Source: Nitrososphaerota archaeon
GTDB lineage: Archaea; Thermoproteota; Nitrososphaeria; Nitrososphaerales; Nitrosopumilaceae
Length of the DNA: 64,000 nucleotides
Assembly (NCBI GenBank): GCA_021325615.1
Contig: JAJPGU010000029.1
Location: forward strand, 1-64,000
Direction of reading: 5' to 3'
Made by a program: the position numbers and the translations under genes. The first letter of the stretch is position 1. Each line of letters begins with the position of its first letter. The notes under the pieces are model-generated. The model searched no databases and had not been told where the DNA came from. It was given only the letters and a program-made list of their open reading frames with translations. Shown piece by piece: positions 1 through 57,491 of the stretch.

Positions 1-74
1 CGCCGCCCGTCAGACTTGAACTGACGACCCGCTGATTAACAGTCAGCTGCTCTACCACGCTGAGCTAGGGCGGC
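1..74 (-). tRNA. tRNA-Asn (GTT anticodon)
   Basis: Read on the minus strand this is a complete cloverleaf: acceptor stem GCCGCCC pairs with GGGCGGC, the D arm has GCTC..GAGC-type pairing, the anticodon stem-loop is CTGACTGTTAATCAG with anticodon GTT (Asn), and the T arm contains GTTCAAGTC. There is no intron in the anticodon loop and no encoded CCA. It lies 44 bp downstream of rpl6 on the same strand, so it may be co-transcribed with or follow the ribosomal operon. Position 1 is the discriminator base, so the gene is intact at the window edge. Confidence 0.97.
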
Positions 75-54111: not shown

Positions 54112-54981
54112 TTGACCGGTCAAAAAATTGATGGAGTTCTTGTTGCCAATTCTGTAAAGGATAGGACTAGAGCGGCGGTGGCCGAACTGAAAAAGGAAGG
54201 AATTGAACCCTGCCTTGCCACTGTTTTGGTTGGCGATGATCCTGCTTCTGCCTCATATGTTTCAAGCAAGCAGAGAGATTGTTCCGAGGTTGGCATTGCC
54301 ACTAAAGACCATAGGCTTCCAAAGGATTTTTCCCAGAAGGAGCTCGAGGCACTAATAGGCCTTTTGAATGATGATTCCTCTGTCCATGGAATTTTGGTGC
54401 AGCTTCCCCTTCCAGAGCAGATAGATGAGTTTTCAACAATATCCAAGATCTCGCCACTAAAGGATGTAGATGGTCTCACCCCATACAACATGGGACTACT
54501 GGCGTCTGGAAGAGCCTTACTGAAGCCTTGCACGCCATCTGGCATCATGGAACTCCTTGATTTTTACAAGATAGACGTGTCTGGCAAACACGTCGTAATA
54601 ATAAATCGAAGCAACCTAGTAGGCAAGCCCCTATACTACCTTCTTCTGGAAAAAAACGCGACTGTTACCACGTGCCATTCAAAGACTCGGGATTTGGGAT
54701 CATTTTGTCGTACCGCAGATGTGGTTATCACAGCCGTTGGAAACCGCGCCAAGTTTACCCTCTCAGGTGACATGATAAAGGAAGGGGCAATAGTAATAGA
54801 CGTAGGTACGAGCAGGCTTGAAGGCAGACTGGCCGGTGATGCCGACTATGAAGCGATCATCAAAAAAGCATCGTATGCCACCCCCGTCCCCGGAGGCGTT
54901 GGGCCCATGACAAGAGCGATGCTTTTAAAAAACACCGTCACAGCAGCTTCAATCAGTAAAGGAATTGGAAAATACAGTTGA
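54112..54981 (+). CDS. folD: Methylene-THF dehydrogenase / methenyl-THF cyclohydrolase
   Basis: 289 residues from TTG 54112. Characteristic: SYVSSKQRDCSEVGI (Lys of the active site in KQRDC), GILVQLPLPEQID, DVDGLTPYNMG, the dinucleotide loop VVIINRSNLVGKPLYYLL and PVPGGVGPMTRAMLL at the C-terminus. Produces 10-formyl-THF for PurN. Followed by the cyclo-ligase gene with a 17-nt overlap. Confidence 0.96.
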   Translation: MTGQKIDGVLVANSVKDRTRAAVAELKKEGIEPCLATVLVGDDPASASYVSSKQRDCSEVGIATKDHRLPKDFSQKELEALIGLLNDDSSVHGILVQLPLPEQIDEFSTISKISPLKDVDGLTPYNMGLLASGRALLKPCTPSGIMELLDFYKIDVSGKHVVIINRSNLVGKPLYYLLLEKNATVTTCHSKTRDLGSFCRTADVVITAVGNRAKFTLSGDMIKEGAIVIDVGTSRLEGRLAGDADYEAIIKKASYATPVPGGVGPMTRAMLLKNTVTAASISKGIGKYS

Positions 54982-55531
54982 AAAGGCAAGGTTCCGCAAG
55001 CAGCTTTTGGACCAGCGCGACAGCTTATCCCCGGATCTTGTGAAGATAGCAAGCAGTAAGATACAAGAAAATCTCAGAAAGGTGGAATATTATAGAAATG
55101 CCCGATTGGTCGGAGGCTATTCCGCAGTGGGAAGCGAAGTACGCACCCAAGACATCCTAAAGGAAATCCTCAGTGCCGGTAAGGAGTTATCGCTGCCGAA
55201 GGTTGAGAAAAACGACCTTGTTTTCAAAAGGATTACGACGTTTTCAGACCTCGAGGTAGGGAATTTTTCAGTAATGGAGCCAAAGGAGCGCTGTGAAACG
55301 GTAAAAAAACTAGACGTCATCCTAGTGCCTGCCATAGCCCTCACTAGGGAAGGATACAGGCTCGGCTACGGATTTGGCTACTACGACAGGTACCTTCACA
55401 ACAAACGGGCAAAAAAAATCGCCCTCTCATATTCCAAGCAGATTGTGAAATCAATCCCACATGATAGCCACGATGTAAAGGTGGACTGTATCGTAACCGA
55501 AGACGAGATAGCATACCCAGAAAAACTGTAG
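54965..55531 (+). CDS. 5-formyltetrahydrofolate cyclo-ligase
   Basis: 188 residues from TTG 54965. Family marks are the basic N-terminus KARFRKQLLDQRDSLSP, the strand LVGGYSAVGSEVRT, and the C-terminal loop EGYRLGYGFGYYDRYLHN, which is the ATP-binding GxGxGYYDR motif. It converts 5-formyl-THF to methenyl-THF. The 17-nt overlap with folD indicates translational coupling. Confidence 0.93.
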   Translation: MENTVEKARFRKQLLDQRDSLSPDLVKIASSKIQENLRKVEYYRNARLVGGYSAVGSEVRTQDILKEILSAGKELSLPKVEKNDLVFKRITTFSDLEVGNFSVMEPKERCETVKKLDVILVPAIALTREGYRLGYGFGYYDRYLHNKRAKKIALSYSKQIVKSIPHDSHDVKVDCIVTEDEIAYPEKL

Positions 55532-55794
55532 GCCTCTCTGCCAAGTCGTCCAAATTTATCATCCCCCTTAACCGTCTATGCTGATAAGGATAGTCAAATG
55601 TCGAATTTTTTTATCGTCATATCTGGCCCAGAAAGACAACTCTCAAGTTTTTTCAGTTTGCCGATAGTTCATTGTAAATTTTCTATGGATTTGTGCGGAT
55701 AGGGGTATAGTTTATTTCAAAACTAATACCGGAACTATATTGATCATCTTTTTATCTTTTGGTGCCGAATTAATTATCCCAGATAGTATCGGCA
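55532..55794. other. AT-rich spacer upstream of the candidate RNA
   Basis: No coding frame is supported. It contains T-rich tracts (55610s, 55650s) that could end the folD transcript and, at 55768-55776, a TATA-like AATTAATTA about 27 bp before the apparent 5' end of the structured RNA. Confidence 0.45.
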
Positions 55795-56113
55795 AACGAA
55801 CGCCACCAATCTCTTGCGAGGGCGGTGGTCTGACAGTCATAGGATTGTCATGCGTGCCGCGTGCCATCTGGGGAAAAACCATCCGACCGGCACAGGTGAC
55901 GATATGCCTGCCGAATTTGGAGATAGGGCGAAGGCTCCATTTCCTGGCCAGACAGGCGTCCGCCAGCGCTCAAACACGGGAGACTTTGCCTCAAGGCTTG
56001 GGAATCCCAAAGAATGTTGGCGAGGGCAAACCGAGCGGCGACTGGGATGCAAAACCGTGATGTCGCTCCAGAGGAAAGCCACATCCCACCGAATGTCGGG
56101 TGGTGGATTTTTT
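55795..56113 (+). ncRNA. Candidate structured non-coding RNA, about 315 nt
   Basis: A GC-rich island without a credible protein, bounded by a TATA-like box upstream and a hairpin plus T6 downstream. Self-complementary stems, in order: CCACC/GGTGG (55803-55807/55824-55828), TGACA/TGTCA (55831-55835/55846-55850), GTGCC/GGCAC (55861-55865/55889-55893), CAGG/CCTG (55893-55896/55907-55910), GCGAC/GTCGC (56038-56042/56062-56066), TGGGATG/CATCCCA (56043-56049/56082-56088, overlapping alternatives), then a CCACC/GGTGG end hairpin (56086-56090/56099-56103) and TTTTTT at 56108-56113. Size fits SRP or RNase P RNA, but I could not find their conserved boxes; identity is open. Strand is inferred from the terminator. 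Confidence 0.45.
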
Positions 56114-56225: not shown

Positions 56226-57491
56226 TTACGTGTAGGAAAGGCCTTTTTGGCCGATATCAGACCTGCAGTACTTGCTTGGCCAGGTAATTTTTTCCGCCCT
56301 CGCATAGGCGTTCGAAATTGCCTCCTGAAGGGTTCTCCCGGTTGCAGTGACACCAAAGACCCTGCCCCCGCTGGTCAATATCCTGCCGTCTACCTTACGT
56401 GTCCCGGCATGAAAGACAATTGATTCCTTTTGCATGACATCAAGGCCAAGGACCTCCTCGTCCTTTGGAAAAGATTCCGGATATCCTTTTGCCGCAAGTA
56501 CAACGCAGACCGCGCTCTTGGCACTCCATGAAATTTTTGGAAGGCTGGAAAGAGTACCACGTATGCAGGCAGTGATGTAATCAATAAGATCCGACTCCAT
56601 TCGTACCATTATCGGCTGACACTCCGGATCTCCCATCCTTGCGTTAAACTCCAAGACGTACGGCCTGTCGTTTTTGATCATAATTCCCGCATAGATGAAG
56701 CCCTTGAACTGCATCCCCTCCCTTTTCATTGCCCCGATGGTCTTTTCTATTACATTTTTTTGTATTACCTCAGCCATTTCATTGGAAATCACCGGTGTCG
56801 GTGAATAGGCTCCCATTCCACCCGTGTTCGGACCCTTGTCACCATCTAGAATTCTCTTGTGATCTTGACTTGTTGCCATTGGATAAGCGGTTTCACCGTC
56901 GGATATGGCAATATAAGACGCCTCTATCCCATCGATTCTTTCTTCCAGTATTATCTTAGATCCAGCATTACCGAAATTTTTCTCGTTCATTATTTTATCT
57001 ATGGCAACTACTGCCCCCTCCAAGTCGTCGCACACAATTACGCCCTTGCCCGCGGCCAGTCCATCTGCCTTGACAACCAGCGGATATCCTACAGACTCGG
57101 CATATTTCTTTGCCTCTTCCCGGTCATCAAATACCTCAAAACGTGCAGTTGGTATGCCGTTTCTTTTCATGAAATTTTTTGACCATACCTTGCTTGATTC
57201 TAACTGTGCTGCCTCCTTTGTAGGACCGAATATTTCAAGCCCCTTACTTGTAAAGAAGTTCACTATGCCTGCGGCAAGCGGGACCTCAGGACCTACGACC
57301 GTAAGACATTTTTGTTCTGTGGCAAACTTGGCAAGTTTTTCTATCTCATCTACACCGATATTGACATTGTTTGCCGTTCCGCCGTTTCCAGGTGCATGGA
57401 AGACCTTGCCCACCTTTGGGCTCATGCCTAGTTTCCAGCCGAGAGCATGCTCCCTAGCTCCTGAACCCACCACAAGAATATCCGTCAACAA
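56226..57491 (-). CDS. purD: Phosphoribosylamine-glycine ligase
   Basis: 421 residues from TTG 57491 (a second TTG follows). ATP-grasp enzyme: ILVVGSGAREHALGWKL at the N-terminus, PLVVKADGLAAGKGVIVC (ATP-grasp P-loop-like), GPNTGGMGAYSPTP, and EFNARMGDPECQPIM at the metal site. Second step of purine synthesis. A TATA-like TATAAAA at 57511-57517 is well placed. Confidence 0.96.
   Translation of the reverse strand: MLTDILVVGSGAREHALGWKLGMSPKVGKVFHAPGNGGTANNVNIGVDEIEKLAKFATEQKCLTVVGPEVPLAAGIVNFFTSKGLEIFGPTKEAAQLESSKVWSKNFMKRNGIPTARFEVFDDREEAKKYAESVGYPLVVKADGLAAGKGVIVCDDLEGAVVAIDKIMNEKNFGNAGSKIILEERIDGIEASYIAISDGETAYPMATSQDHKRILDGDKGPNTGGMGAYSPTPVISNEMAEVIQKNVIEKTIGAMKREGMQFKGFIYAGIMIKNDRPYVLEFNARMGDPECQPIMVRMESDLIDYITACIRGTLSSLPKISWSAKSAVCVVLAAKGYPESFPKDEEVLGLDVMQKESIVFHAGTRKVDGRILTSGGRVFGVTATGRTLQEAISNAYARAEKITWPSKYCRSDIGQKGLSYT

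Follow-up and report, generated by a model that had tools for sequence, protein, structure and literature searches.

A structured noncoding RNA with a covarying 227-nt core in thirteen archaeal families, and a candidate protein partner

It is rare for a large RNA to have an elaborate conserved fold, and most of the examples that are understood are ribozymes, scaffolds of essential complexes, or riboswitches. Two reported RNAs can be compared with the one described here. Thalassoarchaea ncRNA 1 (Tan1) is an abundant noncoding RNA of 229 nt from marine group II Euryarchaeota; its function is unknown, and a complex conserved secondary structure has been proposed for it from six homologues (PMC5069720). 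The raiA-motif RNA (ModT) is a widespread structured RNA of bacteria, conserved in many species (PMC11706538).

Here we analyse a locus of a Nitrososphaerota archaeon, within a stretch of 64,000 nt (contig JAJPGU010000029.1) that we call the window. Our preferred reading, to which we give a probability of about 0.75, is that the locus encodes, as a gene of its own, a structured noncoding RNA that acts in trans as part of a ribonucleoprotein, with the product of an unannotated gene, c0, as its likeliest partner. Transcription and function are inferred. What the analysis shows is a conserved fold, a broad distribution, promoter-like signals in many loci, the absence of a protein and the absence of a matching catalogued family.

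Extent and conserved fold of the RNA

The RNA lies between the gene for 5-formyltetrahydrofolate cyclo-ligase (54965-55531, plus strand) and purD (56226-57491, minus strand), as assigned with Pfam. Its conserved core of 227 nt (Table 1) is contained in a full unit of about 335 nt in the source organism and has a GC content of 0.586, against 0.358 immediately upstream, 0.409 immediately downstream and 0.461 for the whole window. Core length ranges from 219 to 234 nt among homologues, with differences that are out of frame, and no reading frame stays open throughout all ten homologues tested; three frames that are open in the window copy are interrupted in other homologues. The out-of-frame variation and the lack of a frame kept open in the ten homologues together argue that no protein is encoded. 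That positions 55778-56113 (plus strand) are a stand-alone structured-RNA gene without protein product is, in our judgement, close to certain, with transcription inferred in the absence of transcript data.

The core consists of a 10-bp closing stem (P1), a purine-rich asymmetric internal loop, an inner stem (P1b) and the arms P2, P3 and P4. Single-sequence folding energy was not significant (z -1.34 on the plus strand, -0.57 on the minus strand), so relatives were needed and the proof of the fold rests on covariation. Six copies, from the window and same-genus genomes, could be aligned over the core from end to end, with conserved blocks, and RNAalifold predicted 64 pairs from them, 15 with compensated double changes. 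Across 35 homologues (34 distinct), 92.4% of cells were paired, compared with 67.3% in shuffles and at most 40.1% when slid; changes on both sides were seen in 58 of the 65 pairs, and the covariation score was 0.664, compared with 0.228 in shuffles and at most 0.107 when slid. The structure used in this test was derived from the alignment itself. With 44 homologues, 91.4% of cells were paired (63.5% in shuffles), 63 of the 65 pairs had both-side changes, and the covariation score was 0.763 (0.249 in shuffles). Both alignments had been fitted to the covariance-model structure, and the analysis was therefore repeated on a sequence-only alignment: MAFFT on 16 homologues gave compensated double changes in 40 of 50 predicted pairs and recovered the same P1, P1b, P2, base of P3 and base of P4. 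Covariation on both kinds of alignment shows that the conserved fold of the core is real.

The initial annotation had described the segment that separates the folate genes from purD as an unidentified structured RNA, GC-rich relative to its flanks, without a credible protein and with at least six local stems. All of these claims held. The RNA is supported by covariation and matches no catalogued family; the stems are real, with 62 of the 65 consensus pairs formed in the window copy, and in relatives they are kept and covary, no loss of them having been found.

Table 1. Features of the RNA gene in window coordinates
Feature	Position	Strand	Evidence and details
Proposed TATA box TTTTTATC	55749..55756	+	Sequence and spacing, ~25 bp before proposed start 55778
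Lineage-specific 5′ domain, 100 nt	55778..55877	+	P0 55778-55784/55866-55872; hairpins 55803-55807/55824-55828 and 55831-55838/55843-55850
Conserved core, 227 nt	55878..56104	+	Covariance-model match over all positions, 246.3 bits (R1), 197.6 bits (R2); covariation
Closing stem P1, 5′ strand	55878..55887	+	Pairs with 56095-56104; both-side changes in 10/10 pairs, 95.0% of cells paired (35 homologues)
Purine-rich internal loop, 5′ side CGGCACA	55888..55894	+	Family pattern ~CCRGRAAAAG (52-match alignment and raw sequences)
Inner stem P1b, 5′ strand	55895..55903	+	Pairs with 56083-56090; 94.1% and 93.9% paired (two helices); both-side changes in 6/7 pairs
Arm P2: internal loop, apical hairpin loop of RAAG type	55905..55958	+	Two helices; both-side changes in 15/17 pairs
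Arm P3: long hairpin, internal loops, most variable arm	55961..56022	+	Both-side changes in 20/20 pairs (four helices)
Arm P4	56025..56080	+	Base GGC-AAA-CC (56025-56032) opposite GG-AAA-GCC (56073-56080); upper stem 56037-56042 with 56062-56067
GGAAAGCCACAU, longest invariant motif in most families	56073..56084	+	Alignments; differs in same-genus type-B copies and family f25
Purine-rich internal loop, opposite side GAAU	56091-56094	+	Family pattern GARA
Closing stem P1, 3′ strand	56095..56104	+	Partner of 55878-55887
Six-T run, proposed transcription end	56108..56113	+	Sequence

The GGC/GCC base of P4 is invariant in the 35 homologues and so carries no information there; in the wider set of 44 it does vary, and its pairing is kept. 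The upper stem of this arm covaries in both sets. The apical loop of P2 reads GAAG in the window copy, within GGGCGAAGGCUC at 55926-55937. A group of same-genus copies that we call type B (L017, L018, L025, L087-L091) is very divergent and lacks GGAAAGCCACAU, which implies that the RNA is fast-evolving or has been replaced within one genus.

The widely conserved unit is the core alone, and the 100 nt that precede it form a separate 5′ domain present in close relatives only. This domain is kept in four same-genus copies (that of the window and three others), and 4 of the 23 pairs predicted in it show compensatory changes. It is missing in G011 and G024, whose cores begin about 25 bp downstream of a TATA-like TTTTTTATC; about 25 bp is the usual spacing between TATA box and start in archaea. 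By our reading of the sequences, same-genus relatives have CTTTTTATC or TTTTTTATC about 25 bp upstream of the RNA. More broadly, 27 of 54 loci have a TATA-like hexamer 15-45 nt before the core, compared with 8.0 expected, with a peak at 21-40 nt; the window copy falls outside these 27, since the promoter proposed for it precedes the 5′ domain. T5 runs at most 40 nt downstream are present in 20 of 54 loci, compared with 12.9 expected, which is a weak signal.

These data revise the ends of the RNA in part. A start at 55795, about 27 bp after a TATA-like box, had been suggested; TTTTTATC is the likelier box, and the RNA probably starts near 55778, a position inferred from sequence and relatives without transcript data, the exact start being itself an inference. 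The terminal hairpin followed by six T held partly: the T run is there, and the hairpin is mostly the 3′ strand of P1 (56095-56103, pairing with 55879-55887). As an alternative to P1 pairing, this end could form a local hairpin with the CCCACC that precedes it. The length of about 315 nt given earlier becomes a unit of about 335 nt with its 227-nt core.

Distribution of homologues

A credible copy of the RNA was found in 61 genomes from 13 archaeal families of one phylum (f1, f2, f3, f7, f8, f9, f10, f13, f17, f25, f31, f33 and f45; manual count over all searches). Full-length homologues across 13 families make the finding larger than the initial annotation had stated. By blastn, a 351-base query matched 6 of 61 genomes, namely the window copy and five same-genus genomes at 71-80% identity; one of these (G030) has the RNA at the same location between the cyclo-ligase gene and purD, and the other same-genus relatives have it at different locations. 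A covariance model built from the six same-genus copies (R1) matched over the full length in 33 of the 201 genomes searched in the order; leaving the window copy aside, these matches were far more divergent than the blastn relatives, with a best E-value per genome of 2e-31 to 1e-12. A second model (R2) matched 12 of the 121 genomes searched in the family and 15 of the 398 searched in the phylum. A third (R3), run on 40 chosen genomes, added one match (G048), found G052 again and gave one false match. This false positive (G039; 25.6 bits, E 1.6e-4) lies inside an ORF that we take to be ABC-transporter-like and indicates the level of noise; R3 matches with an E-value of 0.1-0.3 (G304, G051 and a second in G052) were left out of the count. 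Eight of the 61 genomes with a credible copy were found through the flanks of c0 (six in f25, one in f33, one in f45). R2 and R3 did not detect the RNA in most of the remaining genera of the family to which the window belongs. The large model searches scored merely 5 to 18 candidates per genome, and absence is weak evidence.

A sequence-pattern scan of genome contigs returned 41 stretches. At 28 loci the match was strong, and each of these lay in a record named Thaumarchaeota, Nitrososphaeria-type or "archaeon". The 13 other stretches, in records named as bacteria, had no strong match, and three weak matches (E 0.15-0.37; one in L069, two in L059) were discarded. Of the 33 R1-positive genomes, 30 carry a single copy, G038 and G103 two each, and G208 four. 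The four copies of this last genome, a Nitrososphaeraceae-type assembly (L044, L048, L051), are divergent; they may be paralogues or reflect a mixed assembly.

The distribution bears on a mobile-element explanation, in which the RNA would be the guide (omega) RNA or a remnant of an IS200/IS605-type TnpB element. In its favour, a TnpB-like gene with a Cas12f1-like TNB domain by Pfam (G018, L007:1885-3054, minus strand) ends 152 nt upstream of the RNA on the same strand. However, this is the sole TnpB neighbour identified, among selected neighbours that were the only ones scanned with Pfam, and the criterion of tnpB linkage was not met. Most genomes hold a single copy, viral contigs gave no match to the motif pattern, and phage records no blastn match. 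We regard this explanation as very unlikely.

Gene neighbourhood and the candidate partner c0

Most neighbours of the RNA vary between families. The notion that it is a cis-acting element, a riboswitch or leader for a neighbouring gene, draws support from f10, where in most loci a phosphoribosyltransferase gene on the same strand begins 20-49 nt downstream of the RNA. Against it, the criterion of a conserved downstream gene on the same strand was not met, since the genes differ and are often on the opposite strand (purD here); moreover, a TATA-like signal lies upstream and P1 closes the RNA at its 3′ end. A cis-acting role is thus very improbable. Because of the conserved fold, the promoter-like signals, the changing neighbours and the absence of a protein, we favour an RNA gene whose product very likely acts in trans, a function that is untested.

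The neighbour that recurs is c0, found in the fetched flank of 27 of the 58 RNA loci. These 27 loci are not independent, as f10 supplies many of them, and two (L081, L082) were fetched through c0, though their genomes also surfaced in the phylum-wide R2 search for the RNA. The two genes are near each other in f1, f2, f3, f7, f8 (1.3 kb apart), f9, f10 and f25, in four arrangements: the RNA downstream of c0 on the same strand (f2, f3); convergent at the 3′ end of c0 (f1, f7, f9, f25); followed by the phosphoribosyltransferase gene and then c0 (f10); or divergent from c0 (f8). A scan of c0 flanks located the RNA at the 3′ end of c0 in f33 and f45 (44.4 and 35.5 bits; next best 14.0). Among the nearest protein-coding neighbours of c0, only three of the 14 largest clusters were common to more than one family. 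In a manual tally of 61 genomes, c0 was present in 23 of 24 relatives with the RNA, compared with 20 of 37 without detected RNA. The link is suggestive because closeness is kept as orientation changes, few other neighbours of c0 are shared, and the RNA is rarely without c0.

It is not proof, because the RNA and c0 are apart in the window's own genome (contigs C8 and C30, respectively). They are likewise not adjacent in most same-genus genomes, nor in f13, f17 and f31. Scans of the c0 flanks of f18, f22, f27, f28, f32, f34, f35, f40 and others gave no match to the RNA; in f28, f32, f35 and f56 most c0 genes have little or no 3′ space, and no locus matched. A hidden RNA in the 3′ gap of c0 in other f1 genera (about 195 nt in many) was considered and rejected, the space holding a small cysteine-rich ORF. 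This ORF, of MICAACETRKHFECIDC type, was observed in the spacer of f1 genomes at L115-L117, L121-L124, L127, L128 and L130-L134.

The RNA could instead be a trans-acting noncoding RNA unrelated to c0, such as a ribozyme, a regulatory RNA, an RNA that sequesters a protein, or a component of some other complex, with closeness reflecting inherited gene order. Supporting this, c0 occurs more widely than the RNA (180 of 398 genomes of the phylum, many without detected RNA) and is non-adjacent in many genomes, and the RNA of f13 follows the same upstream gene in all three loci compared. Against it, the RNA stays as the other neighbours of c0 mostly change from one family to another, and its orientation relative to c0 changes with proximity kept. 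We hold this account to be a serious contender that nonetheless falls a little short of probable; inherited gene order remains a possible cause of the near-adjacency. Still, c0 is the best candidate for a protein partner, and the partnership itself, suggestive and without binding data, is one we would not quite bet on.

The c0 product is about 220 residues long, and 37 positions are invariant across 20 sequences, among them H49, S50, E53, D80, E93 and E95 (H-S-x-x-E, D, E-x-E). The criterion of acidic residues in the order E...D...(E)xK/E was met in the 20 sequences, and the E...D...ExE motif is one that we take, by our own reading, to be PD-(D/E)XK nuclease-like. No significant match was found in Pfam, NCBIfam, PADLOC or PDB, and the AlphaFold model was poor (mean pLDDT 51.3). 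A nuclease identity thus rests on the motif reading only and is no more than possible, inferred from sequence alone with activity untested. Separately, f10 loci (L019 and others) carry an ORF of cluster c3 placed 29-86 nt before the RNA, with the stretch RPDLLGY...EIVLVECET and no Pfam match; by our own reading, we take this stretch to resemble the PD-(D/E)XK pattern of c0.

In our preferred reading, transcription would be driven by the TATA box at 55749 and end at the T run at 56108, yielding the RNA component of a ribonucleoprotein. P1 and the arms may form a scaffold, while the P1/P1b internal loop and the AAA/AAA internal loop of P4 may be protein-binding or active sites. The c0 product would be the partner, and the complex an RNA-dependent nucleic-acid processing enzyme or an RNA-controlled nuclease. 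A bolder version, which we consider unlikely, sees an undescribed archaeal ribonucleoprotein of the 227-nt RNA and a PD-(D/E)XK-like nuclease c0, acting as an RNA-dependent or RNA-guided processing enzyme; equally unlikely is its placement outside the RNase P, SRP, snoRNP, CRISPR and TnpB systems.

An RNA spread across 13 archaeal families, together with a candidate protein partner, provides an entry point to an unknown RNA machine, and it is testable in any cultured thaumarchaeon that carries the gene. Genome annotation of these archaea, which are important in the nitrogen cycle, misses a conserved noncoding RNA.

Comparison with known RNAs

At gathering thresholds, Rfam 15 found nothing in the whole window but two tRNAs. 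A tRNA at window positions 1-74 (minus strand; 66.2 bits with Rfam) was missed by ARAGORN. When matches with E up to 10 were admitted, four unrelated ones appeared in and around the segment, at E 0.74 or worse. Nor did an Rfam 15 scan of 25 homologue loci reveal a related family for the RNA; its matches were SRP RNA and a tRNA (L011), rRNA (L100) and a chance match to Xist in the f33 copy (E 0.41; 19.2 bits, the gathering score being 50).

We also weighed whether the RNA is a very divergent member of a known family (RNase P, SRP or H/ACA guide RNA). The size favours this, as do GGAAAGCC, which recalls an RNase P motif, and an ACA after arm P4, as in H/ACA RNAs. Against it stands, besides the Rfam scan of homologues, the separate presence of RNase P RNA (G000:C1:50382, 166.9 bits) and SRP RNA (G000:C16:144619, 114.1 bits) in the genome. 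A circularly permuted RNase P RNA, prompted by GGAAAGCC, was dropped once the true RNase P gene had been located elsewhere. H/ACA guide RNAs are defined by a conserved unpaired ACA 3′ of a hairpin, and this criterion was not met: the ACA is absent in type-B copies and in f25, and its last base pairs and covaries in P1b. Membership of a known family is very unlikely. A size like that of SRP or RNase P RNA, with their boxes unrecognised, had been remarked on earlier; the RNA belongs to neither, and a search for a high-scoring known family in Rfam returned none. We think it likely that the RNA is a new archaeal structured noncoding RNA family without counterpart in Rfam 15, its relation to Tan1 being open. 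No description of it was found in the open-access literature searched, most subscription papers being outside that scope.

Set beside described systems, the RNA resembles archaeal RNase P RNA (RF00373) in its similar size, own gene and multi-helix fold, and archaeal SRP RNA (RF01857) in the size of the whole 335-nt unit. Unlike the RNA studied here, both are encoded by the separate genes located above, and neither model matched the RNA at its gathering score or at E up to 10. Like a TnpB omega RNA, one homologue (G018) sits just downstream of a TnpB-like gene; unlike one, the RNA is mostly single copy, ends in its own closing stem and has no other identified TnpB neighbour. With the raiA-motif RNA it shares being a widespread, conserved, structured RNA, an analogy only; that RNA is bacterial (PMC11706538). 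Tan1 is alike in being an archaeal noncoding RNA of unknown role, 229 nt long, with a complex conserved structure, but was reported from Euryarchaeota, another phylum (PMC5069720). Should Tan1 prove to be a relative, the RNA would be a new branch of an already reported, unexplained RNA.
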